DNA from: Acidobacteriota bacterium
Lineage (GTDB): Bacteria; Acidobacteriota; Terriglobia; Acidiferrales; UBA7541
Direction: 5' to 3'
Assembly (NCBI GenBank): GCA_003224085.1
Contig: QHYK01000073.1
Coordinates: forward strand, 1 to 50,494
DNA length: 50,494 nucleotides
Position numbers and translations under genes: made by a program. Of the stretch, positions 25,805 through 43,489 are shown in pieces. How positions within the stretch are numbered: position 1 is the first letter of the stretch; every line of letters begins with the position of its first letter. The notes below the pieces were generated by a model that was given only the letters and a program-made list of their open reading frames with translations, did no database searches and was not told the origin of the DNA.

Positions 25805-26118
25805 TGCCCTGCTCCGGGCGCGAACAGAGCGAAGCGATCTCTTACCTCCTGAAATCCCACCTTTCAAACGACTTCCCCCGTGGCGAACATGGCGCCCCGA
25901 ACTGGCGCAGTGCGATTTCCTGGGGGGGTGAGATCTTGTTTCGTACTTTCACATGGTCTTTGCGCTCGGGCATAAAGGCTTTTTCCAAGGCACCGTAGTT
26001 ATGCTTTCTACGGTCGTAGCGCGCAGCAAGATATCCGATTTCGCTTCTGCTTCAGCGATGCAGACGAGAAGGCCAGAGCGAAAGAGCCAAGCGCGCGCGA
26101 TGAAGTTAAGGAGGCGGC

Positions 26119-27867
26119 ATGGCTGCGAGAAAGACATTTTTTCGATTCTGCCTATTCACAGCTGTCCTGTGTCTGGCAGGTCTGTCCGCGAGGGCCCAGA
26201 GCCCGACAGCGCAGGCGGGTGGTTCGTTCATGGTGCAGTGTCCCGGCACCTCACCGCTGCACCCCACTGCCATTAGCAATTCCAATCTCTCTGTGCCGCT
26301 GACGGAGGCTGCGGAGCCGGCCTACCAGGGCCCGGTGGTCACGCAGGAGACCGTCGGCGGAGTGGCGCTGACCTACACGCTCAACGGCGGCACCATCAAG
26401 TGTCAGGAAATCTCCGGCGGCGACGGCTACGCCACCATGGCCGACGGGAACCAGATGTTCATGTTCTCGTTTGGACCTCTTTCCGGCTTGGACCTGATCA
26501 AGAATGGCCAGCCAGGAACGCTGTTCGCCGCGGACTTTAACAATCACTACAACAGCCCGACACTGCCGAGCGTGTGCGGGCGGGCGGCACCTTCAAATTG
26601 TGCTTCCGCGGGGGCGGCGGGCATTTCCAGCAACAGCGCCATCAGCGATCCCACGTATGACGCGAGCCGCCCCATCAGCTTGAACGGCGCAATCGCCGAC
26701 CCAGCCACTATCATGACCGTCGGAGTGCTGAACGGAAACATACCCGCGCCATTGATCGCCTTTGACGAGGACGACGAATTTTTCCTTACCTTGAGCAACG
26801 TTGGCATGATCATGCGCCCGGACCTGTTCGAAGAGCATACCGTGCACTTCCACGGCTACCCGAACGCCTCCTCCTACTATGACGGCGTGCCGGATGCGAC
26901 TTGGGCGATCAACATCGGAGGAAGCGCCACCTACTACTACTTGGCTCCCGATGCGGGCACCTATTTTTGGCACTGCCACATCACCCCGCCCGAGCACCTG
27001 CAGATGGGCATGGTCGGGCAGCTGTATGTGCGTCCGCGGCAGAATCGCCTGCCGGCAGGCGCCTCGCTCTACACCGCAGCCACCACGTGGTATCAACAGG
27101 ATCTGCGGACCGCCTGTCTCAACACGGGAAACAGCAACGGCACGATCAGTCCGGACATTCTCTGCTCGACGCCGCAGCCAGCTATAAACACAGCATTCAA
27201 TCACGTGGCGGGCTACAAGTACGCCTACAACGATGGCGACGGCAGTACGCGCTACGACATTGATGTTCCCATCCAAATTCATGGCTTCGATCCCAACTTC
27301 CATTTCGTCGGTATGACCTTCAACCCCGAAGGATTCGCCGACATGAAGGACAAATATTTCTTGCTGAACGGGCGCAGCTATCCCGACACCGTGGGGATCG
27401 TTGGCTATGCGGGAGGGCCAAGCACCTCCGCAGCGTCTGCCGCAGGCAGTCCGGATGCTGCTTCCGGCGCCATCGGCACCGAAGATTCCGATGGGAGAAC
27501 ACGTTTTTCGCAGCCGCTGCCTACGCTCATCACCCTCGACAGCCACGGCGGACCCGGCGGCACAGGACAGCGGGCGTTGCTGCGCATTGCGGACCTGGAT
27601 GTCACCGAGTATCAGACTTTGGCCTCCCTTGGGATGCCCATGCAACTGGTGGGCTTCAACGCCAAGCTGCTGCGCGATCAGGCGGGCAACAACCTGTATA
27701 TCACCACCAACTCCATCACCTTGGGTGGCGGAGAGTCTTTGGACGTCATTCTCGACAGCACCGGAATCCCACCGGGAACGTACTTCCTTTACACCCCGAA
27801 CCTGGATCACCTGTCTAACGACGCCGAAAACTTCGGCGGGCTGATGACCGAAGTGGTCGTCAAGTAG
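26119..27867 (+). CDS. Multicopper-oxidase-like exported protein with type-1 copper half-set (subunit 1)
   Basis: 582 residues, with a textbook AAGGAGG (26108-26114) before the ATG and a signal peptide to about residue 27 (LAGLSARAQ). The cupredoxin-like middle part has HTVHFHG (His240, His243, His245), and WHCH then EHLQMGM (His285, Cys286, His287, His293, Met298). In multicopper oxidases HxxHxHG and HCHx(n)HxxxGM supply the type-1 ligands (His240, Cys286, His293, Met298) and four trinuclear-centre His. The other four His expected in a complete enzyme are absent. The C-terminal half keeps the cupredoxin frame (YFLLNGRSYPDT, LGMPMQLVGFNAKLLRD, GTYFLYTPNLDHLSND) but has lost the ligands. It is followed after 12 bases by a gene carrying the complementary set. 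Likely location is the periplasm or outer surface; substrate unknown (metal ion or phenolic are the usual choices). Confidence 0.85.
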   Translation: MAARKTFFRFCLFTAVLCLAGLSARAQSPTAQAGGSFMVQCPGTSPLHPTAISNSNLSVPLTEAAEPAYQGPVVTQETVGGVALTYTLNGGTIKCQEISGGDGYATMADGNQMFMFSFGPLSGLDLIKNGQPGTLFAADFNNHYNSPTLPSVCGRAAPSNCASAGAAGISSNSAISDPTYDASRPISLNGAIADPATIMTVGVLNGNIPAPLIAFDEDDEFFLTLSNVGMIMRPDLFEEHTVHFHGYPNASSYYDGVPDATWAINIGGSATYYYLAPDAGTYFWHCHITPPEHLQMGMVGQLYVRPRQNRLPAGASLYTAATTWYQQDLRTACLNTGNSNGTISPDILCSTPQPAINTAFNHVAGYKYAYNDGDGSTRYDIDVPIQIHGFDPNFHFVGMTFNPEGFADMKDKYFLLNGRSYPDTVGIVGYAGGPSTSAASAAGSPDAASGAIGTEDSDGRTRFSQPLPTLITLDSHGGPGGTGQRALLRIADLDVTEYQTLASLGMPMQLVGFNAKLLRDQAGNNLYITTNSITLGGGESLDVILDSTGIPPGTYFLYTPNLDHLSNDAENFGGLMTEVVVK

Positions 27868-27879
27868 GAGAAAACAGCC

Positions 27880-29487
27880 ATGAATCACTTCAAAGCAACT
27901 AGGTTGCGAGTGTGGTTAGTGTGGGCGGGCGTGGGGATGATAGCCGTGGCCTTGCTATGGGCGGGAGCGGCTCAGGCGGCGGTTCCGGGCATTACCGGAA
28001 CAAGCACGGCGAACACTTTTAATCTGGTGGCCACGCAAGGGTATATCACGCAGCCCGATGGCGCCGCGATTTATTCCTGGGGCTACGGGTGCGCCGCGGG
28101 TTCCAGCCCGTCGTTTGTTCCTTACAGCACGGGCGCCTTTTGCCCGGGCATGCAAATCCCCGGGCCCACGCTGATTGTCACCGAAAATGTTCCCTTTACG
28201 GTGACCCTTACGAACAACCTGCCGGCGGCCGTGGGGAACACTTCGCTGGTTTTCCCGGGGCTGCAGATAGTGAGCGTTACAGGTGGTGTGCCCGGCATTC
28301 TAACCCAGGAAGCGACACCCGGTGGTTCGGTCACCTATACATTGTTGGCTACCACGCCCGGCACACACGGCTACATGAGTGGGACCCAAGCGGACCTGCA
28401 AGTGGAGATGGGTTTGTATGGAGCCGTAGTTGTTAAGCCGGCAACTCCTCCGAGTACCTGTGTGTCCCTTGGCAGCGACGTCGCGCAGCACCTGGGGATA
28501 GGGAATCCGGGCATTGACTTCCGGCTGGCGCCGTCGGCTTACGACCACGCCGCAACCTGCTATGACCGGGAATATCTCACGCAGTGGATGGAGCTGGACC
28601 CAAGAATTCACAAAGAAGCGGAGACGCAAGTCCATGCGATCGCAACCTGCGCCGCAAGCACTTCCAGTCCCTGCCCCACCGGGCTCGATGTGAAGACCGA
28701 GCCTTATCATCCGGCCTACTTCCTGATCAATGGACGCTCCATGCCAGACAATATGGACGCCTCCTATGCTCCCAATTATCCGAACCAGCCCTACAACGCG
28801 AACCCTCACATGCATCCAGGGGACTTGGTGCTGGTCCGTATCATCGGGCAGGGCCATTGGCAGCATCCCTTTCACGAGCACGGAAACCATGTGCGTATTC
28901 TGGCACGCGACGGCAACCTGATCCTGAGTCAAACCGATGCCGCCAAACTCGGCGGACGCATGGAGTTCAACACCGACACCACCCCGGGGCAGGCCGAGGA
29001 CGGGATCTTTTATTGGTCGGGCAAGGGACTTGGCTGGGACATTTACGGGCATACCCCGGGTAATGCAGGCAGTCCACCGTGCGTCGCCGACGCGAACGGT
29101 TACTACACCGCAGCCAGCGGCGCTTCCGCCAGCTCGACAAACTATTACGAGTGGTGCGCCGACCACAATCATCCGTTGGAAACAAATCCTGCGGGTCAAG
29201 TGGGTAGCGGCGGCCCCGCGACACAGTTCGACCCCTTAATTGTGACCAATGGCTTGTGGTACAACGGCACGCCGTACCTCGGACCGGACGCCGCGCGGCG
29301 CTCCCGCGGCCCAACACCCCTTCCTCCAGGAATGGCTACGCAGAACCCCATCGAAGAGTCCGGAATCGTCTTCATGTGGCATTCCCACAATGAGCGCGAA
29401 ATCACCACCAACGACGTTTTTCCTGGCGGCATGTTGCAAATGATGGTTGTGGATCCCCCAGTCTGGTACATCGACGAGACACTCTGA
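27880..29487 (+). CDS. Multicopper-oxidase-like exported protein with complementary His set, no type-1 Cys (subunit 2)
   Basis: 535 residues; TAGGAGAAAACAGCC before the ATG gives a clear ribosome-binding site, and a signal peptide extends to about residue 34. The first cupredoxin-like domain (about 40-190) retains the scaffold (IPGPTLIVTENVPFTVTLTN, VEMGLYGAVVVKP) but TSLVFPG stands where HxHG is expected and GTHGYMSGTQ where WxHSH is expected. The second domain (about 235-535) has YFLINGRSMPDN, HMHPGD (His310, His312), HPFHEHG (His329, His332, His334) and MWHSH (His501, Ser502, His503). The Ser in HSH means there is no type-1 copper. These four trinuclear-type His complement those of the preceding protein. 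The stop overlaps an ATG of the next frame (TGATG at 29485-29489). Probably one subunit of a heteromeric oxidase; an electron-transfer-incompetent paralogue is the alternative. Confidence 0.85.
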   Translation: MNHFKATRLRVWLVWAGVGMIAVALLWAGAAQAAVPGITGTSTANTFNLVATQGYITQPDGAAIYSWGYGCAAGSSPSFVPYSTGAFCPGMQIPGPTLIVTENVPFTVTLTNNLPAAVGNTSLVFPGLQIVSVTGGVPGILTQEATPGGSVTYTLLATTPGTHGYMSGTQADLQVEMGLYGAVVVKPATPPSTCVSLGSDVAQHLGIGNPGIDFRLAPSAYDHAATCYDREYLTQWMELDPRIHKEAETQVHAIATCAASTSSPCPTGLDVKTEPYHPAYFLINGRSMPDNMDASYAPNYPNQPYNANPHMHPGDLVLVRIIGQGHWQHPFHEHGNHVRILARDGNLILSQTDAAKLGGRMEFNTDTTPGQAEDGIFYWSGKGLGWDIYGHTPGNAGSPPCVADANGYYTAASGASASSTNYYEWCADHNHPLETNPAGQVGSGGPATQFDPLIVTNGLWYNGTPYLGPDAARRSRGPTPLPPGMATQNPIEESGIVFMWHSHNEREITTNDVFPGGMLQMMVVDPPVWYIDETL

Positions 29488-29501: not shown

Positions 29502-32500
29502 ATGCAATCGAACCAATTGCAAGCGATCTGGAAGAAGTCCGTTTTTGCGGTGCCGCTTCTCTTACTGGCAGCGGCGGCCTGCTTTGGACAGTCGGTGGCC
29601 TTGACGGCAACGCGTCAGACCACCACGCTGCCCGACGGCAATACGGTGCCCATGTGGGGCTGGGTTTGTGGGGCGGTAACGGCACCCGCAGCTTGCACGG
29701 CAATGAATGGATCCGCGCAGACTACGGTCACAGTTGGAACGGTCACGACCACGCCGTGGCAACCGCCGCTCATTACCGTGGCTTTGGCCGCTGGCGCTAC
29801 CACTGCCCCTCTGACCATCACCCTCACCAACAACTTGCCGGTGGAGACCTCGCTGACCATCATCGGACAATTGGGTGGCGGCTTGGGAACTCCGGTTAGA
29901 GAAAGTGGTCCACGAACCGATGGTGCTCACAAAGGGCAAACCACGACGACTTGGACTACAAGTGTGCCAGCCACGTTTGTCCCCCCAGCTCAAGGAGCAC
30001 GTGTGCGATCCTTCGCGGCCGAGGCGGCACCAAACATAGGGACTCAAACCTATACCTGGGCTGCTTTGAAGCCGGGAACCTACCTGATTGAGACCGGAAC
30101 ATATCCTTCCATCCAAGGGCCTATGGGTCTCTACGGAGTTTTGGTGGTGTACACGCCAGCCGCCGCGGGCGGCAGTGCGCTTGGCGCGGGTACAGCCTAT
30201 TCCGGCACGGCTTATACAGCTGCGGCGCCGACCGGAACTGCCTATTCGATCAATTACGACGCGAACGTTCCGTTGTTACTGAGCGAAATTGATGCCAGGC
30301 AAAATACGGCTGTGGAGCAGTTTCTGGAAACTTCGGCGGGCTGCCCGACGACCACACCGGGATCGGGAACATGCAGCGGGGCGATTTCCGCCAGTGCCGC
30401 GACGGCGAAATGGACGCCCGCCTGCGGGGCGGCGCACAGTTGCTATCCCGCCGCGGTCAACTACACTCCGCTGTACTACCTGGTTAACGGGGCGGCGTTC
30501 GATAAAACGACCATGGCCTCCTCGGCAGCTCCCATCGCGCCCACCGCTGCGACCGGTAACGTGCTACTGCGTTTCGTGAATGCCGGTCTGCATATGCACG
30601 TTCCTTCTGTTAACGGCTTGAAAATGTCGCTGATGGCAGAAGACGGCAATGTTCTCCCCGACGTGGCGATCGGCGCTTCACTGACGCCGCAGTCGCTGAA
30701 CGTCAGAGTGCAAAGCGAAGTTTTCCTGCCCGCAGGCAAGGTCTACGACGTTATGGTTAGTCCCGCGAGCAACGCAACCGCGACTACCCCTCCCACCGCG
30801 TTTACTCCGGGAAACTATCAGGTGTTTGCCCGCGACCTGAGTCTTTCAACCGACGGCGCACGCGATGGCGGCATGCAGACCATTCTGCAAGTAGCAGGTG
30901 GCGTAGCAACGGCAGCCGCTACCCCCACGGTGAATAACTCCACCTACTACTGCGCGCCAGGCGTAAATCTGACCGTGTCCGATCCTGGGAAGGGTGTGGT
31001 CGGGAACGCTGTTAACGTCTATGGCGTAATGCTCACGGGCAATCCGCCCAACAACACACTCACTCCCTTCGGCGGGGGCTCACTCACGCTGAATCCCAAC
31101 GGGACCTTTCAGTATACGCAGCCGCCCACCAACACAACTTGCGGGGGCAGCTTCACCTTTTATGCCAACGGAAATCCAACGCTCACCGGATCGGCAACCA
31201 TTAGTCCGTCCCCCACGCTAGCGAACAAGCCGGTTGCCAACAACGACGCTTACACGAGCAACATTTCCAATCTTTTGCGAGTCGCTGCCCCTGGTGTTTT
31301 GGCTAACGATTCTGACCCTAACCATTACCCATTGTGCGCGGCTCCGGCGGGCGCCACGAGTTGCCCGGCGGGAGTGCAAACGATCTCCGCTACAGGGGCC
31401 ACTATTACTCTGAAACCCGATGGCTCTTTCACCGCGACTTTGGCAGCACCGCCGACCACAGGAACCGCTTCCGCAACATTTACCTATATCGCCGTCAACT
31501 CGGAAAATCAGACCAGTAACACGGCTACGGTTACCCTGACCTTCCAGGCGGGCAGCGGCCTGGTTGTGAACGTACAGGATGCGCAATCAAAGGTGGCTAT
31601 CACAGATTACAAGTGGATTATCGAACAGGACCGCACCTTCCACATCGATCCCGCATGTCAGCAAAATGGCGCGGGCGGAACCAAGCCAGCCTACTGTCCA
31701 GCGGGGGTTCCTCCTACTTTGGGCACCAACTTCCATGCCAGCTACATGCCTGTGGTGGCGGTTGGCTGCACCGGGCCGCAGAGTTGCGAAAGAGATCAGA
31801 CGGTATATGACCCCACAACCGGATCGCACGTGCCGGCCGTTTGCGATGGCGGAGTCTGCGCCCCGGTCGGAGCGGGTAGCGCATATTTGCCCACAACCCT
31901 GCCGAGCGCCGTGAATCTGCCGGCGATAGACGCCAACGGGAGCCCGGTGTATTACTACATTTCGATTTTGCCGGGGGACGCCGCCAACTCGTTCAACACT
32001 GGCAACGTCTCTGACCCAACCATTGCGGGTAATTGCGCCGCGGGCAAAACGCCCACAGGACAGTCTCTCGCTTCTGGTTGCGGTCATACCATGGGCGGTG
32101 TACCTATCGCACCCGTCTGTACCGCTTCGGGCACCGCCCAAACATGCGCTCTACCTACTTCTGTGACGGTGAATGTGGAACCCAACCCGCTGCCTACCTC
32201 CACCGTCACCGTATTCGTTTTCGAGGATGACTGGCCGCTTAACGGTGAACCGGATACCGGCGGCGGACCCGATGCTTACCCGACACAAGAAGTGGGGCTA
32301 GGCGATTTCCAAGTCATACTTTGGGACGATGCCGGCGGTAGTGGCGATGCCACGGGGCAGATGACCTACGACATGTTCAATGAGCCCTTGACCAACGCTC
32401 TCAACGGAACCATTGATCCTTTCACCGGCCTTGATGCCTGCCCGATTTCTAACGCCAGCGGGTCGGCCCCGCCCGTGGGTGTGATCATCGTCTGCCCCCA

Positions 32501-35500
32501 ATTCGAGTCTGACAACAAAACCCCTTCGCCGCTGACCGGCCAGGCGGTCATTAGAAATCTGATGCCCGGCAGGTTCGGTGTCATCGTCCATCCCGGAGCC
32601 GCACGAGAAGCTCGGGGAGAAGAGTGGCTCCAGACCAACACGCTGGATGGCACTCACTTCCTGGATTCTTTCGTTAAAGTCGCGGAGCCCGCCTACTTCC
32701 AGGAATATGGGCCGGGTGGCTTCCACGTTTTCATGGGCATGGCCAACGCGAAGATCATCAACGCGCGCTTGCCGCAAATCTGCACCGCAACCGCCACCAA
32801 TCCGACTCCTCCGCCATGCCACAACACCATCAACGGACAAGTCGTGAACCTGCACCAGGGACGCTCCCCCAGCGAGCAGCTCTACAGTAGCGCCGTTTTC
32901 CCGCAGGGCAATGCGGGAAATTATGCCCCGCTAAACTTCACCAGCTGTTATGCCGCCTTGGGTGACCCAGACGGCGCCACCTTTGCATTCGCTAAGTGCG
33001 ATGAAAACGGGAACTTCTCCTTCACGGGAATTCCTGATGGCAACTGGGGGCTCGTGGTCTTCGACCAGTGGCTGGACCTGATCGTCGATGGATCGAGCAA
33101 GACCGTGAACGTGAAGGGCGGCCAGACCCTCAATTTAACGTACGCAGGCTTCACCTGGCAGACGCACCTGTGGAATTCAACCTATATGGATTTGAATGGG
33201 AACGGCATCCAGGATCCCGGCGAGCCCGGGCTGCTCCAAATTCCAACCAGGGTGCGCATGCGGAATGGCAAGTTCAACAATACTTCGCTAACGGATATCA
33301 ACGGCACGGCCCATTTCGACGAAACCTTCCCGCTATTTAACTGGTATGTCACGGAAACCGACAACACGCGTTTTCGCCCAACTGGCGTGCACGTCGTCAA
33401 TGACGCCGGCGGACAACTTGACGGTCCGTCGAGCGGGGGATATACCCCCGGAAACGGGAATAGCGGTCCTTACCAGGGAGTTCTCAATTCGAAAGAGACC
33501 TTCCCAGTTCCCAGCAATCTTAGAGTGCCGGGCGCCGTCTACTGTGGGGTCGCCGCTTGTACCGACGCGAATCTTGGCAATACCCCCAATGGCGGAGGCC
33601 CGGGCGGGTCGACGGGCCGAGTGGACCCTGGGTCAATTGTCACCGAAGGCTGGCAGGGAGGCGTCAGCGAATTCGACGTGATCGATTGGGGCAAGTTACC
33701 CTATGTGCCGGGAGAGACAGGCGGGATTCGGGGCCATGTGGTTTACAGCTCGACTCGACCTTTTGACGACCCTGGGCAGCTCTTTCAAAACCTCTGGGAG
33801 CCGCTCGTTCCCGGCGTCACCATCAATCTCTATCAAGAAGGCACAGGCCCCGACGGCACACAGACTCTGACGTTGATTGATACCACCACAACCAGCAGTT
33901 GGGACAATTGGGCACAGGGCTTCAATCCGACCACGGGCTTGCCCAACATGAACTGCCCCGGACAAGATCCCGCCGATCCTTTCTACAGCTACACGCTTGC
34001 GGGAACTCCCAATTACTTGTTCCCCACCACTGCACTGCCGAACAATTCGCAATACAAATGTTACGACGGCTATCACAACCTCAATCAGATACAACCGGCA
34101 CCTTATGATGGCCTGTACCAATTCCCCAGCCCCTATTGCTTGAGCCATCCCACCGGCAGCTTCACGATCGCGTCGGGGGCCACTGGAACCTGTGCCCTGG
34201 TAGCAAATCCGGCCTTGAGTGCTCCCGTCCACACCGGCGCCGCACCCGCTGTTCTGCCACCCGGAATATACGTGGTTGAAGCTGTAACCCCGCCGAACTA
34301 TGAAATCGTCAAAGAGGAAGACAAGAACATCCTCATTGGCGACAACTTCATTGCTCCCGTGACACAACAGTTCGGCGCCATCACGAATATTTTCATCGTG
34401 CCCGACCAAGCTACCGTCAACAACGCTAACCCTTGTTACGGAACCGGCGGCGGATGCACGAATCCAACGACGGACATGGGTCGGTCGTTCAACGTGGGCG
34501 GCTTTGGGCCTGGCGGACTCATCGAGATGCCGGCGCCTTGTGTCGGCCAACTCCGCATCGTCCCCGATTACATGAGCATGTCTCCAGAATCCGGGGAAGT
34601 GGCGCCATTTGCCGGCGCATCTCGCCATCTGTGCGACCGTAAGGAGGTCACGCTCGCGGACCAGATGCAGGCGCAAACGGACTTCTTCATTTGGACCAAG
34701 ACGCCGGCCGCTTCGCACTTCACCGGGTTCATTTCCGATGACTTCTCCTCCGAATTCGACCCAGCGGCTCCGGCCTACGGCGAGAAGTTTGCCGTGCCAA
34801 ATTCCCCCGTATCCATTAAAGATTACAACGGGGTGGAGATTTCCCGCGTGTACTCGGACCAGTGGGGCATCTTCAATGGATTGGTGTACTCGACCTGGCA
34901 GGTCAATCCACCCAACCCCACCGGCTATGCGCCGGGGATGATGATTACTTGCATGAACGATCCGGGTCCGATTCCGGGCCCAACGCCAGGCAGCTTGATC
35001 ACCGATCCTTACTACAACCCGAATTACAGCAACTTCTGCTACGAGAACCCGTTCATGCCCGCCGATACCGACTACCTGGACACTCCGGTGGTTCCCACGG
35101 CGGCTTTTGCCGAAGGCTACAATCCGCCGGATTGCAACTACCCGGACGGCACTCCTGCAGTCCTGCGAGTGGACGGCGATGGCCCGGGACCTTGGGTAAG
35201 CGCAATTGGCCATAAAATTACCATTACCTCCCTCGGCAACCAAGTTGTGTCTAACAACGCGTATTCCGGCCCTGCCGCAAGCATCTTCCCGTACAACCAG
35301 AAGTTCATCACTCGCCACTACGGCTTTGGGACCGCCCAGGGCACCGTCACTATCGCTGGCAAAAACATGGGCATCGTGAGTTGGAGCGACACCACTATCG
35401 TAGCCAACGTATCCGGGGCTATCCCCGCTTGCACCCGGCAGCAGGTGGGCTACGCCGGCGCGCTGTGCGGGGAATTGACGGTCACGACCGCCACCGGCCA

Positions 35501-38021
35501 ATCTTCGGTCGACGCGGTCACGGTTACCGTTGGCGGCAAAGCTCCCACTTATGTGAACGGGGAAAATCCCAGCAACACTGCCATCCAGTCTGCGATGGAT
35601 GCGGCTAGCCCAGGCGACCTGATCATCGTCAACAGCTCGTTTGCGCCTAGCTCGACAGCTCCTGCCGGAACATCGTGTACCGGCGTCACCGTGGCCACCG
35701 CCACGTGCGTCCCCATAGCGGCAACTTATAACGAAATGTTGCAAATGTGGAAGCCCGTGCGGCTACAAGGCGTTGGCGCGCCGTCGGTCGTCATTAACGC
35801 CAACGCGCACCCAGCAGGCAAGTTGCTTCAGCCGTGGAGGCAGCGCGTGAACTGCTTGTTCGGATTGGCTCTGGACGGCGGCTACATCACCAGCACGCAT
35901 CCCTACGATCCCTCCGGTGCGTTCTCCTGCACTTCGGCGATGCAGAGCAAGGTCGATCCGATCCCCCTCGAGCCTATTGTTGGCTGGGACACCAGCCTCA
36001 ATGGCAATATCGCAGAGCTTTTGCAGGAGCCCACCCTGATGGGCGCCTACGAAGGCGCGGCGATTACCGTTCTGGCCAAAGGCTTGGAGAACAACAATAC
36101 TGCCAACTGCAGCACCACGACCGAGACGGTGACAGGCTGTATCCCGCTCAACAGCAGTACCGGTGCAGTCGCCAACAATGGGTTCAATAATGGTTTGGGC
36201 GATTGCGACACCGCCTCCCAATTCTACGTCTCCAACTTCCTGTGCAACCCATCGCGGATCGATGGTTTGAGCATTACCAATAGTTCCCAGGGGGGCGGTG
36301 GCGTCTTCGTACACGGTTGGGGCCATTATCTGGAAATCGCCAACAACCGCGTCTTCAACAATGGCGGCACACTCGGCGGCGGGATCATCGTCGGCCAAGC
36401 CGAGTCTCCACCGGCGACTTACGATGTGACCGGTCTCACGCAGTTGCCGTTCTTGTTCAACCACGATGTCTACGTGCATCACAACGCAGTCACAGGAAAT
36501 ACCGCCTACGGTGACGAATTGAACTCTAGCTCGCCCGCGTCAGCAGGAGGGGTAGTGTTCTGCGATGGCTCCGATTACTACCGATTCCAATTCAACTGGA
36601 TATGCGGCAACCTGAGCACGAGCGACGGCGGTGGCGTCGCCCACATCGGGTTCATCTATAACGGCAACATCTCGAACAACTGGATCGTCTTCAACCAAAG
36701 CTCGAACCCCACGCTCCCGACCCACGGCGGCGGCTTGGTGGTCATGGGCTTGGGTCCAGATGGAACTGTTTGCGAGGGCGCGGTGACCGATACCGAGTGT
36801 CCCCCGGCCCTTTCTGACGGTGCGGGGCCCAACACAGTGATTGACAGCAATGTGATCATGGGCAACACCGCCGAAAGCGGCAGCGGCGGCGGCATCCGCC
36901 TGCAGCACATCAACGGAACTGAGGTGCAACGCAACCCCAACAATTCTGCAGCCTGGTATCAGGTGACGGTCACGAACAATGTCATCGCCAACAACGTTGC
37001 CGGCTGGACTGGTGGTGGCGTTTCACTTCACAACGCGGTCAGGGTCGACTTCATCAACAATACCGTGGCCTCTAATGACACCACTTCTTCGGCGGGAGTG
37101 CTCTTTGACACGAATGGCGCTTCCTTTTCCACGGTGCCGCCTCCGGGTTGCGACCCCAATTCACCAGCTAGCGCAACCAACAACTGCTCGAACACCGTCA
37201 TCACGCAATCGAATTTCCTGCCCGCCGGATTCGAGACCGAAGCGCACGACGCTAACTTGCTCGCGGCCTTCACGGTTGCGACGGTCGACTGCGGCTCGGG
37301 ACATTCGCAGTGCACGCGGTTCTCCAATCCGCTTTTGCAAAACGATATCTTCTGGCAGAACCGGGCGTTTCGCATCACCACCGGCACCGTTCCGACGACA
37401 CCGGGCATGCAAACCACGGTTCAGCTGGTTCCCTCGTTGACGCAAACCACTACCGGGTCTTGCCCGAGCGGTGCGAACTATTGGGACATCGGCGTCTATG
37501 GCGACACCGGCCCAACCGACCACAGCTCCGGCCTGACGCTCTCGCCGGCTGGCTCGGACCTCAGCACCGGCGGTTACGCTGGAAATGGCAACAGTTCCAC
37601 CAACCCCGGCTTTACCTCTCAATATTGCAACGGTTCCCGCGTGCCGCCGGAGATTGCGACGCTGCTTTGCAGCGGCACGAACGGCAATGCCAATGCTCCC
37701 GGATGCATCCAGCCAGGTACGGTGGGCGTATCGATGACTGCCCCCGCCGGCGTTCCGGACATCAACCAGTTCTACCCTGCCTTCACGCTGGCGCCCGCCG
37801 CCACGGTGGACGAAGGCAACAACTGGATCAACATGTTCTACGGACCGCTTTCCTTATCGAACCCTACTCTCTACACGACAGCGGGGATGGTGATGCTCCC
37901 GCTGGGTAACTACAACCACGTTCCAGGCCCGGCGGGTGCGTCCGCCTATTCACCCTCGCCTCAGTCCCGGCCTCCTAGGCCAGGGGCTCGGGCGCAAGCC
38001 CAGCGCGCGGGGTCAAAGTGA
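29502..38021 (+). CDS. Giant secreted multidomain protein: cupredoxin-like, Ig-like, SdrD-B/Cna-B-like, IPT/TIG and beta-helix
   Basis: 2,839 residues. ATG 29502 is preferred over 29487 because GGAGAAAAGAGCC precedes it, the same leader as the previous gene. After a signal peptide (about 1-30) come two cupredoxin-like domains: 30-215 (MGLYGVLVVYTP; ligand positions replaced by TSLTIIGQ and GTYLIETG) and 225-465 (YYLVNGAAFDKT, LHMHVPSVNG). Two Ig/cadherin-like domains follow (about 475-690, the second with VANNDAY and GVLANDSDP). SdrD-B/Cna-B-like stretches fill 690-1650 (FVFEDDWPLNGEPDTGG, DLNGNGIQDPGEPGL, GGIRGHVVYSS). An IPT/TIG domain lies near 1940-2010 (YGFGTAQGTVTIAGKN) and a right-handed beta-helix near 2015-2560 (repeated N-N-x-V/I-x-x-N, as in ISNNWIVFNQ, VTNNVIANNVAG, FINNTVASND). 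The tail is Pro/Arg-rich. Probably an extracellular scaffold or surface-anchored partner of the two oxidase-like proteins; catalytic role unproven. Confidence 0.85.
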   Translation: MQSNQLQAIWKKSVFAVPLLLLAAAACFGQSVALTATRQTTTLPDGNTVPMWGWVCGAVTAPAACTAMNGSAQTTVTVGTVTTTPWQPPLITVALAAGATTAPLTITLTNNLPVETSLTIIGQLGGGLGTPVRESGPRTDGAHKGQTTTTWTTSVPATFVPPAQGARVRSFAAEAAPNIGTQTYTWAALKPGTYLIETGTYPSIQGPMGLYGVLVVYTPAAAGGSALGAGTAYSGTAYTAAAPTGTAYSINYDANVPLLLSEIDARQNTAVEQFLETSAGCPTTTPGSGTCSGAISASAATAKWTPACGAAHSCYPAAVNYTPLYYLVNGAAFDKTTMASSAAPIAPTAATGNVLLRFVNAGLHMHVPSVNGLKMSLMAEDGNVLPDVAIGASLTPQSLNVRVQSEVFLPAGKVYDVMVSPASNATATTPPTAFTPGNYQVFARDLSLSTDGARDGGMQTILQVAGGVATAAATPTVNNSTYYCAPGVNLTVSDPGKGVVGNAVNVYGVMLTGNPPNNTLTPFGGGSLTLNPNGTFQYTQPPTNTTCGGSFTFYANGNPTLTGSATISPSPTLANKPVANNDAYTSNISNLLRVAAPGVLANDSDPNHYPLCAAPAGATSCPAGVQTISATGATITLKPDGSFTATLAAPPTTGTASATFTYIAVNSENQTSNTATVTLTFQAGSGLVVNVQDAQSKVAITDYKWIIEQDRTFHIDPACQQNGAGGTKPAYCPAGVPPTLGTNFHASYMPVVAVGCTGPQSCERDQTVYDPTTGSHVPAVCDGGVCAPVGAGSAYLPTTLPSAVNLPAIDANGSPVYYYISILPGDAANSFNTGNVSDPTIAGNCAAGKTPTGQSLASGCGHTMGGVPIAPVCTASGTAQTCALPTSVTVNVEPNPLPTSTVTVFVFEDDWPLNGEPDTGGGPDAYPTQEVGLGDFQVILWDDAGGSGDATGQMTYDMFNEPLTNALNGTIDPFTGLDACPISNASGSAPPVGVIIVCPQFESDNKTPSPLTGQAVIRNLMPGRFGVIVHPGAAREARGEEWLQTNTLDGTHFLDSFVKVAEPAYFQEYGPGGFHVFMGMANAKIINARLPQICTATATNPTPPPCHNTINGQVVNLHQGRSPSEQLYSSAVFPQGNAGNYAPLNFTSCYAALGDPDGATFAFAKCDENGNFSFTGIPDGNWGLVVFDQWLDLIVDGSSKTVNVKGGQTLNLTYAGFTWQTHLWNSTYMDLNGNGIQDPGEPGLLQIPTRVRMRNGKFNNTSLTDINGTAHFDETFPLFNWYVTETDNTRFRPTGVHVVNDAGGQLDGPSSGGYTPGNGNSGPYQGVLNSKETFPVPSNLRVPGAVYCGVAACTDANLGNTPNGGGPGGSTGRVDPGSIVTEGWQGGVSEFDVIDWGKLPYVPGETGGIRGHVVYSSTRPFDDPGQLFQNLWEPLVPGVTINLYQEGTGPDGTQTLTLIDTTTTSSWDNWAQGFNPTTGLPNMNCPGQDPADPFYSYTLAGTPNYLFPTTALPNNSQYKCYDGYHNLNQIQPAPYDGLYQFPSPYCLSHPTGSFTIASGATGTCALVANPALSAPVHTGAAPAVLPPGIYVVEAVTPPNYEIVKEEDKNILIGDNFIAPVTQQFGAITNIFIVPDQATVNNANPCYGTGGGCTNPTTDMGRSFNVGGFGPGGLIEMPAPCVGQLRIVPDYMSMSPESGEVAPFAGASRHLCDRKEVTLADQMQAQTDFFIWTKTPAASHFTGFISDDFSSEFDPAAPAYGEKFAVPNSPVSIKDYNGVEISRVYSDQWGIFNGLVYSTWQVNPPNPTGYAPGMMITCMNDPGPIPGPTPGSLITDPYYNPNYSNFCYENPFMPADTDYLDTPVVPTAAFAEGYNPPDCNYPDGTPAVLRVDGDGPGPWVSAIGHKITITSLGNQVVSNNAYSGPAASIFPYNQKFITRHYGFGTAQGTVTIAGKNMGIVSWSDTTIVANVSGAIPACTRQQVGYAGALCGELTVTTATGQSSVDAVTVTVGGKAPTYVNGENPSNTAIQSAMDAASPGDLIIVNSSFAPSSTAPAGTSCTGVTVATATCVPIAATYNEMLQMWKPVRLQGVGAPSVVINANAHPAGKLLQPWRQRVNCLFGLALDGGYITSTHPYDPSGAFSCTSAMQSKVDPIPLEPIVGWDTSLNGNIAELLQEPTLMGAYEGAAITVLAKGLENNNTANCSTTTETVTGCIPLNSSTGAVANNGFNNGLGDCDTASQFYVSNFLCNPSRIDGLSITNSSQGGGGVFVHGWGHYLEIANNRVFNNGGTLGGGIIVGQAESPPATYDVTGLTQLPFLFNHDVYVHHNAVTGNTAYGDELNSSSPASAGGVVFCDGSDYYRFQFNWICGNLSTSDGGGVAHIGFIYNGNISNNWIVFNQSSNPTLPTHGGGLVVMGLGPDGTVCEGAVTDTECPPALSDGAGPNTVIDSNVIMGNTAESGSGGGIRLQHINGTEVQRNPNNSAAWYQVTVTNNVIANNVAGWTGGGVSLHNAVRVDFINNTVASNDTTSSAGVLFDTNGASFSTVPPPGCDPNSPASATNNCSNTVITQSNFLPAGFETEAHDANLLAAFTVATVDCGSGHSQCTRFSNPLLQNDIFWQNRAFRITTGTVPTTPGMQTTVQLVPSLTQTTTGSCPSGANYWDIGVYGDTGPTDHSSGLTLSPAGSDLSTGGYAGNGNSSTNPGFTSQYCNGSRVPPEIATLLCSGTNGNANAPGCIQPGTVGVSMTAPAGVPDINQFYPAFTLAPAATVDEGNNWINMFYGPLSLSNPTLYTTAGMVMLPLGNYNHVPGPAGASAYSPSPQSRPPRPGARAQAQRAGSK

Positions 38022-38596
38022 TGTTTGGTACTGCACAAACCTGTCAACCGATGCTGCTCGCGGCATTTCTCGCGAGCAGCTTTCTCTTTTATCCAACGCT
38101 CGCGGCGAAGGCTCAGACGACGGGAGTGGACCGAGCAGCACAAACACGGCAGGCGGTGTCTTCGCCAACAAGGGCAACCGCCCAGCTCCCGCCCGCTGCG
38201 CGCACGGTGAGAAGCGAACGCGCGGCGATGATGTACCGGCGGCTTTGGGGCATCGAGGACATCACGCTCCGGGCCGCGGCCTCGGGAACTGTGATCCGTT
38301 TCAGCTACCGCGTGGTGGATGCAGGCAAGGCCAAGATTCTGAATGACAAGAAGCAGAATCCGTACTTGCTGGTGGAGAAGAATGGAGAAAGGCTCGAAGT
38401 GCCGACTACGGAAAAAGTAGGACAACTGCGTCAAACGGCGGCCTCGGAAAACGGGCGCGAATACTGGATGGCGTTCGGAAATCGCAATCACACGGTTCAG
38501 CCGGGAGATCGCGTGGAGGTCGTGATCGGCCCGTTTCGCGCCAGCGGCCTTGTCGTGGAACCACCGCATCCCGTCGTGGTATCGAAAGAACCTTGA
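38021..38596 (+). CDS. Small exported protein of the copper-oxidase operon, unknown function
   Basis: 191 residues. The ATG at 38021 overlaps the stop of the giant gene (TGATG, 38019-38023), implying translational coupling; a GTG one codon earlier is also in frame. A signal sequence spans about residues 1-33 (LLAAFLASSFLFYPTLAAKA). A low-complexity linker follows, then a compact domain (about 70-190): MMYRRLWGIEDITLRAAASG, RFSYRVVDAGKAKILNDKKQ, YLLVEKNGERLEVPTTEKVG, and QPGDRVEVVIGPFRASGLVV. The domain is probably all-beta and has no Cys or His cluster, so a copper enzyme role is unlikely; assembly factor or structural subunit is a guess from its position. I do not recognise a named family. 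Confidence 0.75.
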   Translation: MFGTAQTCQPMLLAAFLASSFLFYPTLAAKAQTTGVDRAAQTRQAVSSPTRATAQLPPAARTVRSERAAMMYRRLWGIEDITLRAAASGTVIRFSYRVVDAGKAKILNDKKQNPYLLVEKNGERLEVPTTEKVGQLRQTAASENGREYWMAFGNRNHTVQPGDRVEVVIGPFRASGLVVEPPHPVVVSKEP

Positions 38597-38716: not shown

Positions 38717-39076
38717 CCACGGGAAAATGACAGGACGGCACCTGGGACTTTGCGCCTCCGCCGCTAGGGGTTTGCCCGTTTTTTCCAAAAGACGCAGTTG
38801 CCGTGAAGCAAAAATCTGACAGGGGATTGCCGCCCGCCTCGGTTGTAATTATAAATATCGTTCCCGGCGATAAGAAAACTCCGCCGCACTTTTCGCCGCC
38901 CGGATTTTCTAACTTTTGCGATTTCTTTCCTATCGGAACGGCGTAGGTACAATTCCTAAGCAAATTTGCAGCAATCTCGGGATTCTCTATACCAACGGAA
39001 AGGACTACTACGTACCACAGTCGGTGCAAGCTACTTAATCTGCCACGACCGCCTAGCCCACAGTCGGGAGGCCCCC
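38717..39076 (+). promoter_or_regulatory. Gene-free upstream region of the Crp/Fnr gene
   Basis: About 360 bases without a convincing gene. It becomes AT-richer from 38840, around TAATTATAAATATCG, where TATCG (38856-38860) and CGATA (38868-38872) form a short inverted repeat; a promoter is likely in this AT-rich part. A T6 tract at 38779-38784 follows only a three-pair stem, so I do not call a terminator. The start of the regulator is set by GGGAGG (39066-39071). Confidence 0.35.
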
Positions 39077-39841
39077 ATGATAGAGACACCTGAGCTATTT
39101 GAAGGTCTTGGTGTTTCCGAACGTAGGAAGATTTTGTCCGGTGCTTGTGCTAGAGATTTTGCTTGTCGCGAAATGATTTTCTGGGCAGGGGAGCCGATAA
39201 AGGAAATCTTCCTGTTAACCAAGGGCCGGGCGAAAATAACTCAACTCAGTATGGACGGACGGGAAATCATCCTTGGGCTAACCGTCCCGGGAGAAGTAAT
39301 TGGATTGCAAGGTCTCGCCAGCGAAAATGTTTACTCCTCAACCGCGCAAGCGCTACAACCCTGCCGAACGCTGGTGTGGAGTCGAGCGAAATTCGAAGCG
39401 GTTATGGGGCGCTTTCCGCTGGTCTATGGCAACGCGCAAAAAATCCTTGCCCGCCAAATGGCGGCGCTTTCGCGTCGCATTTGCGACATCGTAATGGGAA
39501 AGGTCTCATGGCGTCTGGCTTCCGGGCTGCTTCATTTGTTTCGGAAAATCGGTCGCAAGGTGGATGGCCAATTCGCACTCGATGTCACCCAGGAGATCGT
39601 CGCAGGAATGACCGGGATGACCGTGTCCACCGCGAATCGTCAACTCTCTAAATGGGAAGGGCAGGGCCTCGTGAAGTGCCTTAGAAACTGCATTGTCATT
39701 CGAGACTTTTCGGCACTGACGCAGATTTGCCAAGACGGCCAATCCGTCAGTGCCGAAGTCGTTTTTGCCCGAGATTGTCCATCATTCGACCGCCAGAACC
39801 AGTTAATGCCGGCCGCCGCAGAATCCCTGAATCGCACGTAG
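39077..39841 (+). CDS. Crp/Fnr-family transcriptional regulator
   Basis: 254 residues from ATG 39077, five bases after GGGAGG. An earlier in-frame ATG at 38966 lacks such a site. The cyclic-nucleotide-binding-like beta-roll spans about 5-125 (ILLTKGRAKI-type strand FLLTKGRAKITQLS, GREIILGLTVPGEVIGLQ), a dimerisation helix about 125-160, and a winged helix-turn-helix about 170-225 (VTQEIVAGMTGMTVSTANRQ followed by LSKWEGQGLV). There is no N-terminal cluster of four cysteines as in oxygen-sensing FNR, and the cAMP-contact Arg/Ser pattern of Crp is not obvious, so the signal is unknown. It lies downstream of, and in the same direction as, the copper-oxidase operon; control of that operon is possible but not shown. 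It converges with the ADOP permease gene, with 206 bases between holding nothing notable. Confidence 0.9.
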   Translation: MIETPELFEGLGVSERRKILSGACARDFACREMIFWAGEPIKEIFLLTKGRAKITQLSMDGREIILGLTVPGEVIGLQGLASENVYSSTAQALQPCRTLVWSRAKFEAVMGRFPLVYGNAQKILARQMAALSRRICDIVMGKVSWRLASGLLHLFRKIGRKVDGQFALDVTQEIVAGMTGMTVSTANRQLSKWEGQGLVKCLRNCIVIRDFSALTQICQDGQSVSAEVVFARDCPSFDRQNQLMPAAAESLNRT

Positions 39842-40047: not shown

Positions 40048-42726
40048 TTACTCCTGGCGCAGGGCATTCATCGGGTCGATGCGGCTAGCATAACGCGCGG
40101 GCACAAGGCTGGCGAGCATGGCGGCCAAGACCAACAGCGAGATCGTGCTGGCCAGGGTCAAAAGGGAAGTGGGCAGCATTCCCTCTACCAGCCGTTCCAG
40201 CAAGCGTCCGGTGGCCAGAGAGGCGGTAGCGCCAATTCCAACACCGAGAAGAATCATGACCAGGCTTTGGCGGAGGACAAGCCAGATGACCTCAGAAGGG
40301 CTCGCCCCGAGAGCCATACGCAGGCCGATTTCCGGAACACGCTGGCCTGTTAAATAGGCAAGCACGCCATAAACGCCGATGCAGGCAAGCAGCAAAGCTA
40401 GGCCGGCGAAGGCGCTGAACAATAACAACAGGAAGCGCTCGAGTGCCAGCGAGTCGTGAGCAAGCTGCTCCATGGTATGGACTTGATAAAGGACTTGATC
40501 GCCTGCAGCGCCGCGCAATTCCCGGCGCAGTGGTTCTACGAGGGTCAACGGAGAAACGCTGGTGCGCACGGCGATAGACATGAGCTGCGACCAGCGGCGC
40601 AAAAATGGCGGCGCAACTTGGGCGAACGGGTAGTAAAGCTGCGCACGCACCGGGGACTGATCGTCGCCCGCGAGGCCCCAGTAGCGGACGTGGCCAACGA
40701 CGCCCACGATTTTGTACGGCGCAGAGCACGCAACGAATGATTTGTCGTTTTGCTGCGGGCACGGCATATCGGGAATCCACAAGTTCTTTTCGAGAGCATC
40801 CTGCCCGCTGAACGCGCTCTTCGCCAGGATGTCGTCCACCACAATCACCGGCTCGCTTCCCAAACGATCGTGCTCGTCAAAGAAGCGGCCTCCGAGCAGA
40901 GCAATGCGCATCACTTTGAGATAGTCCGGCGTCGCGCTGCTTGCCAGAGCCATGGGCTGCTTGTTTTCGGGCGGGACATCGGCCGTCGTCCAATAGCCGA
41001 TTTGATTGTTGCCTTCCCGCATGGGAACGATATCCACGGCGGTAACGGACTCAACTCCGGGAACGCGCCGCGCTCGATCGATCAACTCTTGCCATGCGCC
41101 GGGAATCCGCGCGGGATCTGCGAGCGAAGCAGGTGAGAGCCCCACACGCATGGTCAGGAGATCGCGGATGTCCAACCCAGGGTCGAGAGAAGCAGCATGC
41201 AACAGCGTGCGCCCCAGCATTCCCGCAGCAACCAGAAGGACAATCGCAAGAGCAACTTCAGAGACGACGAAAGCGGAGTGCAGACGCCGCGTCCCCGACG
41301 TCACTGTCCGGGCTCCTGCGCGCAGGATCTGTTCCACCTCGCGCACGGGGGCCCGCCACGCTGGGGCCAGGCCAAAAAGCACGCTGCTCAACAGGGACAC
41401 ACCGAAAGCAAAAAGCAGCACGCGCCAATCGAGCTGGACTTCCTCGGCCCTCGGCAAATCGCCCGGCCAAAACTTCAAGGAAGGGGGGAGTCCCGCGCCC
41501 GCCAGCATTACGCCGAGAAAGCCGCCCGCAAGGCTGAGGAGCGCGCTTTCCGTCAAGCACTGCCGCACTAACCGGCCGCGGCTCGCCCCGAGAACTACGC
41601 GCATGGCCAGTTCGCGTTCGCGAGAAACGGAGCGCGCGAGCAGCAAACTGGCTACGTTGACGCACGCGATCAGCAAGACTAACCCGACGGCGCCCAGCAA
41701 AAGCCATAGTGTGGATCCAATGCCGCCAACTTCGGGCCGCAGCAATCTGACTTGCAGCGAGCGGCCTTTGTTCGTGTCCGCGTAAGCTTGCGCCAGACGA
41801 TTTCCGGTCAGTGCCACTTCTGCCTGGGCCTGCGCCAGCGTCGCTCCGGGCCGCAGGCGCGCTAACCCGTGGACCGGTTGTGCCGCCCGATTGCGCAAAT
41901 AACCTGCGTGGTCTTGGCCGAGGGGCGTGTAGGCGTCCGGTTCGTATCCATAGGGCCGGAATCCGGCGGGCGCAACACCAACAATGGTGTAGCGTTTCTG
42001 TTCGAGAGTGAGCGAAGTTCCAAGAACGTCAGCTCTTCCTTCAAAGTGGTGCTGCCAGAAGCTATAACCAAGGATGGCGACGGGCGCCGCGCCAATCTTG
42101 TCCTCCTCGGGCAGGAACGCCCGCCCGATAGCCAGAGGCAGGCGCAGGACGGAAAAAATCTCTGGCGAGATTTCGAAGTAGTCCACATACTGGGGCTCGC
42201 CCGGCGAGCTCAGGGTGCCGTTGTTGAAGACCAAGGCTGCCATGACGAGAGAACGGCTTTCGCGCTGGCAATCCACAAAATCAAGATAGGCGAGCTTCTG
42301 TTGGCCATTGATTTTTGTGTTCCAGCCGTCACTATGGCCATTAATTGAGACCAGCCGGTTGGGTTCCGGATACGGCAGAGGCTTCAGAAGCACGCCGCTG
42401 ACCAGGCTGAACATTACGGTGGTGGCTCCAGTGCCCAGGGCGAGAGTCAGAAGCGCTACCGCGACAAAACCGGGCCGCTGCCGAAAACTGCGCACCGCGT
42501 AACGCACGTCTTGAAGAAAATCCACGGCCCGGCGCCAGCCCCACATGTCGCGCGTGGTTTCTTCCGCGATGGGGACATTTCCAAATTCACGACGGGCGGC
42601 ATAGCGGGCTTCCTTTGTTGTTTGGCCCGATTCCACGGCTTCGCGCTCGGCAACAAGCAAGTGAGCCTGAATTTCTTCCTGTAACTCCTCATTGCGCCGA
42701 CTTCTTCGCCAGAGCGCCCATTTCAT
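40048..42726 (-). CDS. ADOP-type MacB-like ABC permease
   Basis: 892-residue inner-membrane protein of the acidobacterial duplicated orphan permease type. A cytoplasmic permease-prefix segment (about 1-60, RNEELQEEIQAHLLVAEREA) precedes two FtsX/MacB permease units. Each unit has a helix, a large periplasmic MacB-PCD domain (VMFSLVSGVLLKPLPYPEPN; GIDIRDLLTMRVG-like second copy) and a three-helix FtsX block (AVGLVLLIACVNVASLLLAR; YGVLAYLTGQRVPEIGLRMA). The last residues MASLVPARYASRIDPMNALR are typical. The usual partner is an ATPase; none is adjacent on this strand, though one lies at 47.3 kb. Its ATG overlaps the stop of the PadR gene by four bases (ATGA), the standard PadR-ADOP pairing. Substrate unknown; such proteins are thought to work in efflux or in mechanotransmission across the envelope. 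Confidence 0.93.
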   Translation of the reverse strand: MKWALWRRSRRNEELQEEIQAHLLVAEREAVESGQTTKEARYAARREFGNVPIAEETTRDMWGWRRAVDFLQDVRYAVRSFRQRPGFVAVALLTLALGTGATTVMFSLVSGVLLKPLPYPEPNRLVSINGHSDGWNTKINGQQKLAYLDFVDCQRESRSLVMAALVFNNGTLSSPGEPQYVDYFEISPEIFSVLRLPLAIGRAFLPEEDKIGAAPVAILGYSFWQHHFEGRADVLGTSLTLEQKRYTIVGVAPAGFRPYGYEPDAYTPLGQDHAGYLRNRAAQPVHGLARLRPGATLAQAQAEVALTGNRLAQAYADTNKGRSLQVRLLRPEVGGIGSTLWLLLGAVGLVLLIACVNVASLLLARSVSRERELAMRVVLGASRGRLVRQCLTESALLSLAGGFLGVMLAGAGLPPSLKFWPGDLPRAEEVQLDWRVLLFAFGVSLLSSVLFGLAPAWRAPVREVEQILRAGARTVTSGTRRLHSAFVVSEVALAIVLLVAAGMLGRTLLHAASLDPGLDIRDLLTMRVGLSPASLADPARIPGAWQELIDRARRVPGVESVTAVDIVPMREGNNQIGYWTTADVPPENKQPMALASSATPDYLKVMRIALLGGRFFDEHDRLGSEPVIVVDDILAKSAFSGQDALEKNLWIPDMPCPQQNDKSFVACSAPYKIVGVVGHVRYWGLAGDDQSPVRAQLYYPFAQVAPPFLRRWSQLMSIAVRTSVSPLTLVEPLRRELRGAAGDQVLYQVHTMEQLAHDSLALERFLLLLFSAFAGLALLLACIGVYGVLAYLTGQRVPEIGLRMALGASPSEVIWLVLRQSLVMILLGVGIGATASLATGRLLERLVEGMLPTSLLTLASTISLLVLAAMLASLVPARYASRIDPMNALRQE

Positions 42727-43091
42727 GCCACGTTCCCCTTTTCAGTGGGATTCAAGATTCCGGCTATGGCGGCGGTAGTACGCTCCCATCGCGAACGCTC
42801 AGACGCCAATTGGCGCTTTCCCGCATTGGTCAGGCGGTAGACACGCAGCCGCGGCCCCAGATCGGAGGCTTTCCATTCCGCGGCGACCCAGCCTTTGCGT
42901 TCGAGCCGGTGAAGCGCCGGATAAAGCGAACCCGTGTCCACTTTCAGAATCTCACCGGAATTTGTGCGCATAGCCTTGCTCAGGGCATATCCATGCCGGG
43001 GCGCCCATTGCAGGGTTTGCAGAATGAGCAGGTCCAAAGTGCCCTGGAGGATCTCGGTGCGATTTTGGTAGCGATTCTTGCGTTTGGACAT
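42723..43091 (-). CDS. PadR-family transcriptional regulator
   Basis: 122 residues from the ATG at 43091 (MSKRKNRYQNRTEI...). The PadR winged helix occupies about 14-90: LQGTLDLLILQTLQWAPRHG, SKAMRTNSGEILKVDTGSLY, ALHRLERKGWVAAEW and YRLTNAGKRQL are the standard landmarks. A short C-terminal helix (RSRWERTTAAIAGIL) mediates dimerisation. In-frame codons upstream to 43169 are possible, but they would carry the inverted repeat inside the coding region, and their translation is unlike the family. No strong ribosome-binding site precedes 43091 (an A-rich stretch does), suggesting weak expression. The stop overlaps the permease start, so the two genes are translated together. PadR proteins of this size usually repress their own operon in response to a small molecule or envelope stress. 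Confidence 0.9.
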   Translation of the reverse strand: MSKRKNRYQNRTEILQGTLDLLILQTLQWAPRHGYALSKAMRTNSGEILKVDTGSLYPALHRLERKGWVAAEWKASDLGPRLRVYRLTNAGKRQLASERSRWERTTAAIAGILNPTEKGNVA

Positions 43092-43099
43092 GTTTTTTT

Positions 43100-43149
43100 T
43101 TGGTAGGTAGACAATCTTCTTACCCCTATGCGAGCATTCTACATACCAA
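43100..43149. promoter_or_regulatory. Inverted repeat, candidate PadR operator
   Basis: TTGGTAGGTAGA (43100-43111) and TCTACATACCAA (43138-43149) are reverse complements at 11 of 12 positions, 26 bases apart. The pair begins 9 bases upstream of the PadR ATG, in the divergent region between PadR and the HlyD-type gene, which is where PadR autorepression usually acts. Two dimer sites or DNA looping would suit the wide spacing. Confidence 0.55.
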
Positions 43150-43323
43150 AGAAGGTAAGGAAACCGCATTTCTCATTCGGGGGTCTGGCCGTCCCAGGCG
43201 GCGCCCTGGCGAGGTCTCGGGGAAGGCATAACAAAGTGCAGCGGTTACAGGCAGGACGCTCGGGATCGCGACCGCGAACTAGGCACCTCCGCCCGGCCGG
43301 CGAAGCAGCCCTTGGCGTGTGAG

Positions 43324-43474: not shown

Positions 43475-43489
43475 AGAACGGACATTAAT

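Follow-up and report, generated by a model that had tools for sequence, protein, structure and literature searches.

The window analyzed here, a 50,494-nucleotide stretch of an Acidobacteriota bacterium (assembly GCA_003224085.1, contig QHYK01000073.1, positions 1 to 50,494), carries three consecutive genes that we call P1, P2 and P3-G. The giant protein P3-G has an N-terminal module, named P3, that is paralogous to P1 and P2, and together these three chains probably make up a single exported multicopper oxidase. Its ancestor would have been a homotrimeric two-domain oxidase whose gene was duplicated and whose copies then lost copper ligands in a complementary manner. The initial annotation of this DNA had described a multicopper oxidase split between two adjacent genes, each with half of the trinuclear histidines, and had proposed a heteromer of their products with the copper center at the subunit interface. 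Both reading frames were located at the coordinates given there, and its residue numbers proved correct (H240, H243, H245, H285, C286, H287, H293 and M298 of P1; H329, H332, H334, H501 and H503 of P2). Beyond these two proteins, a third homologous subunit opens the next gene. P1, P2 and P3-G each have a signal-peptide-like N-terminus, as judged by eye from the sequence. In loci of the window type, the giant part G is joined to the P3 C-terminus; in eight distant Acidobacteriota loci, referred to as compact cassettes in the following, each cupredoxin chain has a shorter gene of its own.

Alignment to two-domain oxidases showed that P1 domain 1 contains a full type-1 site (H240, C286, H293, M298) together with half of a trinuclear set (H243, H245, H285, H287), and that the ligands of P1 domain 2 are lost. 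P2 domain 2 features the complementary half of the trinuclear set (H332, H334, H501, H503) without the type-1 Cys, HSH being in its place, and P2 domain 1 is ligand-free. A two-domain multicopper oxidase would hold both half-sets in one chain; here, P1 has the domain-1 set, P2 the domain-2 set and P3 neither. Across the putative assembly, however, a type-1 set and eight trinuclear His are available and conserved, with the type-1 set and four His in P1 and four His in P2. We compared the ligand positions by aligning 17 rows each of P1, P2 and P3 jointly with five one-gene two-domain oxidases. The eight domain-1 ligand columns are all kept in 17/17 P1 rows. P2 rows show a ligand letter at two of these columns only (H in 3/17, M in 1/17), and so do the P3 rows (H in 3/17, H in 1/17). 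Both trinuclear His of the domain-2 HxxHxH motif are found in 17/17 P2 rows and in 0/17 rows of P1 and of P3; P3 retains the first His of the motif in 14/17 rows and no other His of it. HCH is present in all 17 P1 rows and HSH in all 17 P2 rows, and because P3 rows have neither, the HMH seen in four of them, including that of the window, is not a trinuclear pair. The alignment also upholds the earlier statement that the other cupredoxin domains of P1 and P2 have lost their ligands. Both half-sets are invariant across 16 widely spread rows of each protein, as is S502 in the 16-row P2 alignment, and their conservation is far more than chance would give.

Apart from its ligands, P2 has a long domain-2 insertion between WDIYGH and FMWHSH. 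P2 proteins of the window type moreover share conserved Cys at positions 71, 88, 227, 265, 401 and 426 and a motif HPHMHPG (H310, H312), which most compact P2s do not have.

All three chains are homologous over most of both domains. The start of P3-G matched P2 weakly by tblastn (25-28%) and strongly by profile. With hhalign, P2 and P3 aligned at 100% (E 9.7e-50), P1 and P2 at 99.7% and P1 and P3 at 99.1%, and P2 is the closest paralogue of P3. Profile searches against the PDB ranked 3g5w first for P1 (1.3e-22), P2 (2.3e-16) and P3 (1.3e-14) and 2zwn second for all three. Two cupredoxin domains with the fold of two-domain oxidases were found in P2 by structure match, and in P1 and P3 by profile and hhalign. 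Copper nitrite reductases are also among the nearest structures, so that one might consider an enzyme of their kind, with a mononuclear type-2 site where two chains meet. We regard this as very improbable, as the oxidases 3g5w and 2zwn lead the sequence matches, and as HCH and HxH of P1 with HSH and HxH of P2 add up to the eight His of a trinuclear set. Nitrite reductases are not known to have such an eight-His set.

When 17 rows per protein were placed in a tree with five one-gene oxidases, P1, P2 and P3 each formed one clade, supported at 100/100, 92/77 and 100/99, respectively. The three subtrees share an outline in which L094 is outermost and the window type is one nested clade with L078 branching first; compact rows are mostly unresolved in the P2 and P3 subtrees. 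This pattern would fit one old triplication that was followed by co-inheritance. Three distinct paralogous genes occurring together would furthermore argue against a homotrimer of a single gene product.

The pairing of the genes was followed through genomes. One scan of genome contigs with P1 yielded 199 relatives, mostly from Acidobacteria and Burkholderiaceae with a few other metagenome-assembled genomes, and the best 80 were taken for locus comparison. P2 follows P1 on the same strand in 80/80 of these loci, and all eight P1 ligands are retained in 79/80 homologues. The five P2 positions are all retained in 75/76 rows, a count that omits four loci with P2 frames below 400 residues (L009, L024, L080, L087); the one deviating row, L015, is cut short where its contig ends. 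The P3 module comes next in 74/80 loci, and the remaining six end inside P2 or at most 300 bases past it. The genome of the window itself harbors three cassettes of P1, P2 and P3-G, namely that of the window and two further ones (L103 on contig C17, L104 on contig C81) in which P1 and P2 share 62-73% identity with their counterparts in the window.

Larger genome samples, in which the first few candidates per genome were scored so that weak members may be missed, gave the same picture. Among 297 Acidobacteriota genomes, 26 had any match to the P1 profile and 54 any match to P2. Above 150 bits, there were 18 P1 loci in 14 genomes, with P2 adjoining in 17/18; the 18th (G136) starts at base 6 of its contig. 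Conversely, every one of the 17 P2 loci above 100 bits lies beside P1. Of 299 Pseudomonadota genomes, 33 matched P1 and 24 matched P2 at 1e-15, but only two P1 loci and two P2 loci exceeded 150 bits, at the identical two places. The other P1 and P2 matches of this sample scored 59-82 bits, and five that we fetched are one-gene two-domain oxidases. The order of G550 was sampled with 349 genomes, six of which have P1 at 1e-30; five of these are new and, being absent from profile building, served as held-out loci. All five have P1 with HxxHxHG and HCH, followed by P2 with HPxHxHG and HSH and by P3 without these motifs. One genome (G301) contains five P1 loci (L120-L124), each with P2 and P3-G, and another (G300) two partial P1s that both run off contigs. 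Two class samples were positive in 3/13 and 2/38 genomes, with all loci already in the set. In a third phylum besides Acidobacteriota and Pseudomonadota, 1/43 genomes was positive, the starting genome, and a mis-binned contig is thus possible there. Viral contigs that were scanned contained no P1 relatives. The spread of the cassette is patchy over Acidobacteriota and Pseudomonadota. In Cupriavidus metallidurans CH34 it lies on the second large replicon, which is unannotated in the record used, and in the Paraburkholderia largidicola record (L106) P1, P2 and P3-G are annotated as 'hypothetical protein'. The adjacency of P1 and P2, by which the split-oxidase claim had proposed to be judged, thus held throughout, and a P1 without P2, which would have spoken against it, was met nowhere in the genome samples except at sequence ends.

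Such a conserved split already refutes the reading that a stop codon or an assembly error has cut a single ordinary oxidase gene in two, which we consider practically negligible. In the window, P1 and P2 do lie in one frame, with TAG and 12 bases between them; across the loci compared, however, they share a frame in 17/76 and differ in 59/76. Furthermore, P2 has its own start and, reading its sequence, a signal-like N-terminus, and the two proteins are paralogous along their full length rather than being the two ends of one chain. A three-domain laccase split in two was rejected as well, as it would put the type-1 Cys motif in the C-terminal piece; HCH sits in the upstream P1 and HSH in P2.

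One might also think that P1 carries electrons at a type-1 site or binds copper and that P2 is a copper chaperone, the two working separately and sharing no trinuclear site. The complex itself is deduced from sequence, and the compact locus L095 adjoins a CusB/CusA-like pair, both of which would suit such a division of labor. Nevertheless, we hold it to be quite unlikely. HCH together with HxH would be superfluous in a plain blue copper protein, yet P1 retains both, P2 retains exactly the complementary HxxHxH and HxH, and the two sets are invariant and co-inherited.

Fusions and the order of genes point in the same direction. About 500 N-terminal residues of P3-G make up the third cupredoxin module; the remainder has SdrD_B and shares homology with beta-helix giants that stand alone. 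A separate giant G is found upstream of P1 in seven of the eight compact loci, truncated in L095 and L097 where the contig ends, and these separate G proteins match the rest of P3-G with 29-35% over stretches of 350-1890 columns. In L088 (5857-12726, minus strand), G is instead joined to the P1 N-terminus in a 2290-residue frame with cadherin-like domains between. Of five G proteins scanned, three have SdrD_B and four have right-handed beta-helix domains. Alternative fusions within a constant gene set classically indicate that the encoded proteins act in concert. A small secreted-looking protein, S, is encoded after P3 or P3-G in the window, in 6/8 compact loci, in CH34, in Paraburkholderia, in L107 and in 4/5 held-out loci, and is likely a fifth component. 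As the hits of the S profile also went into building it, L107 and the held-out loci are the only independent occurrences. As to the exceptions, L092 ends before S, the stretch of the held-out locus L114 ends inside P3-G, and a search with the S profile at compact locus L091 found no S. A Pfam scan of S from the window and from Paraburkholderia gave no match. At L080 (13342-14376), the P3 N-terminus continues into S in one frame and the giant part is absent, by deletion or assembly error.

How could the three chains be arranged? In a ring with the order P1, P2, P3, the sole complete interface would be formed by P1 domain 1 and P2 domain 2 (4 + 4 His), with the type-1 copper beside it in P1, and the interfaces of P2 domain 1 with P3 domain 2 and of P3 domain 1 with P1 domain 2 would be empty. 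The reverse ring order yields no complete site. As the two surviving half-sites can meet in this way and the four dead ones pair together, the losses fit one ring order exactly. Single electrons would then enter at the type-1 copper of P1 and run via its HCH to the shared cluster, where O2 would be reduced to water at the P1/P2 interface; P1 alone or P2 alone would be inactive. A metal ion, a phenol or electrons from a cytochrome are candidate substrates. P3 might close the ring and tie it to the giant exported beta-helix/SdrD protein. On balance, we hence favor a pseudo-threefold heterotrimeric ring of which one interface is live and two are dead. It might stand between homotrimeric two-domain oxidases and ceruloplasmin-like enzymes, before fusion of the chains, and its dead third chain would anchor the giant beta-helix protein so that the oxidase would be displayed on the surface. 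It is from the distribution of ligands and genes that we infer this geometry, the copper content, the oxidase activity and the surface location.

For the initial annotation this has two consequences. Complementary half-sites in constantly paired genes are strongly supported. P3 is, however, as constant as P1 and P2, which makes a P1:P2:P3 ring likelier than the 1:1 heteromer proposed there; the latter is probably incomplete.

Structure predictions were made for fused P1-P2 chains with AlphaFold. The window-based model reached a mean predicted local distance difference test score (pLDDT) of 59.4 and a predicted template modeling score (pTM) of 0.58, and the model based on L032 reached 62.0 and 0.51. 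In both, P2 domain 1 is well modeled. VIA-align matched the P2 part of the window-based model to 3gdc (Z 24.3, root-mean-square deviation 2.5, 254 aligned) and to 3g5w (Z 24.0, root-mean-square deviation 3.3, 270 aligned). Foldseek listed ceruloplasmin, factors V and VIII and MnxG for the same model at query template modeling (TM) scores of 0.29-0.34, likenesses that are too weak to show an assembly.

The closest competitor of the three-chain ring is an oxidase made of P1 and P2 alone, as a heterodimer or as (P1P2)n, in which P3 would stay out of the ring and serve only to dock the giant protein. The trinuclear ligands are confined to P1 and P2, and in the window type P3 is fused to the giant protein, as this arrangement would have it. 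We nevertheless consider it unlikely. P3 is a full two-domain paralogue and has its own gene beside P1 and P2 in compact cassettes without the giant fusion, as expected for a ring member, and the accessible text of a review gives the homotrimer as the only active form of two-domain oxidases (PMC3738974). According to the part of another article that was accessible, two-domain laccases need oligomers, as their trinuclear cluster is formed where domain 1 of one molecule faces domain 2 of its neighbor, and trimers are cited there (PMC3527528).

Several points nonetheless weigh against the ring of three chains. Some two-domain laccases are reported as dimers, again in the accessible part of PMC3527528. 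The place given to P3 in the ring derives from homology and co-inheritance. P1 domain 2 on its own matches solved oxidases weakly (10 bits). In the tree, the P2 clade has moderate support, the program flags the branches leading to the outgroup as long, and the three subtrees do not agree on the inner order of four window-type rows. One P1 of the 80, that of L035, has an altered ligand (H245S). Finally, both fused models place the copper-site stretch of P1 and the HSH stretch of P2 mostly below a pLDDT of 50.

Among known systems, the two-domain oxidases 3g5w, a blue copper oxidase of Nitrosomonas europaea, and 2zwn, a metagenome laccase, resemble P1, P2 and P3 in having two cupredoxin domains per chain. 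Enzymes of this kind, with the type-1 copper in domain 1, are labeled type C in a type B/type C naming. Their motifs also run parallel to those of P1 and P2, with HxxHxH and HCH...H...GM in domain 1 and HxxHxH and HDH, without Cys, in domain 2. In contrast, they combine both half-sets in one gene and would have three sites as homotrimers, whereas here one set is divided among three diverged genes. MnxG of the Bacillus Mnx complex (9bxa) was the second-ranked Foldseek match of the fused model, at a query TM of 0.32. It is an oxidase inside a multi-protein complex that has one oxidase chain. The putative ring would share six cupredoxin domains and a single trinuclear site with ceruloplasmin, the likeness of the fused model being weak (query TM 0.31-0.33). 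Ceruloplasmin, however, is one chain, with the cluster between domains 1 and 6 and type-1 coppers in domains 2, 4 and 6, as described in the accessible text of PMC3738974; here, there are three chains and the sole type-1 set is in P1 domain 1. In the part of PMC10673308 that was accessible, 'heterotrimer' denotes a reaction product, and a hetero-oligomeric fungal laccase of Podospora is mentioned. Our search for literature on split, heteromeric or operon-encoded bacterial multicopper oxidases found none, most subscription papers being beyond its reach.

The chemistry of two-domain multicopper oxidases is known, but its distribution over three genes is probably new and the three-chain assembly has probably not yet been described. 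If the ring exists, the products of two different genes would jointly form a trinuclear copper site, a third paralogue free of ligands would be their structural partner, and the halves of the site could be expressed and mutated separately. An evolutionary route from homotrimeric two-domain oxidases toward ceruloplasmin-like enzymes is an older idea, and a plausible step on it would become open to experiment. The ring would also explain a patchy cassette of Acidobacteriota and Pseudomonadota whose three main proteins carry the hypothetical annotation in the Paraburkholderia record.

The genes and motifs of the locus are compiled in the table. P1, P2, P3-G and S follow each other in this order with gaps of 12, -1 and -4 bases, the start of S overlapping the end of P3-G by 4 bases. 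In P1, Pfam detects Cu-oxidase_3 (7e-15, residues 200-308), and in P2 it detects Cu-oxidase_3 (6.7e-12, residues 92-188) and Cu-oxidase_2 (8.3e-5, residues 274-347). P3-G gave SdrD_B alone.

Table. Genes and copper-site motifs of the cassette, with positions in the window.
Feature	Positions	Strand	Evidence or remark
P1, two-domain cupredoxin chain, 582 aa	26119..27867	+	open reading frame, Pfam, profiles, joint alignment
P2, two-domain cupredoxin chain, 535 aa	27880..29487	+	open reading frame, Pfam, profiles, joint alignment
P3-G, giant protein, 2844 aa	29487..38021	+	open reading frame, Pfam, homology
P3 module, two cupredoxin domains, homologue of P2 and P1, without trinuclear ligands	29589..30986	+	
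G part of P3-G, about residues 700-2700	31584..37586	+	matches separate giant proteins beside compact P1-P2-P3 cassettes
S, small secreted-looking protein, 192 aa, GTG start	38018..38596	+	conserved in related cassettes
P1 HTVHFHG: H240 type-1 ligand; H243, H245 trinuclear	26836..26856	+	
P1 HCHITPPEHLQMGM: H285, H287 trinuclear; C286, H293, M298 type-1	26971..27012	+	
P2 HPFHEHG: H332, H334 trinuclear; H329 former type-1 position	28864..28884	+	
P2 HSH: H501, H503 trinuclear; S502 at the Cys position	29380..29388	+	

Outside the cassette, the neighbors vary and comprise a gene for a cytochrome c with a binding protein, a weakly LolA-like pair, subtilases, a multihaem cytochrome and a CusB/CusA-like pair. 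Downstream in L106, L078, L083-L085, L089, L097 and L105, a gene encodes a cytochrome c fused to a periplasmic-binding-like domain, and the weakly LolA-like gene pair lies downstream in L106, L058, L080, L099, L100 and L105; in L106, the cytochrome and the LolA-like pair span 25860-29188. The downstream LolA-like pair or the cytochrome c fusion is a possible electron partner. In the window, a gene for a Crp-like regulator (38966-39841) has homologues in seven related loci, and it is followed at 40048-48037 by genes for a MacB/FtsX-type ATP-binding cassette transporter and an HlyD-type adaptor.

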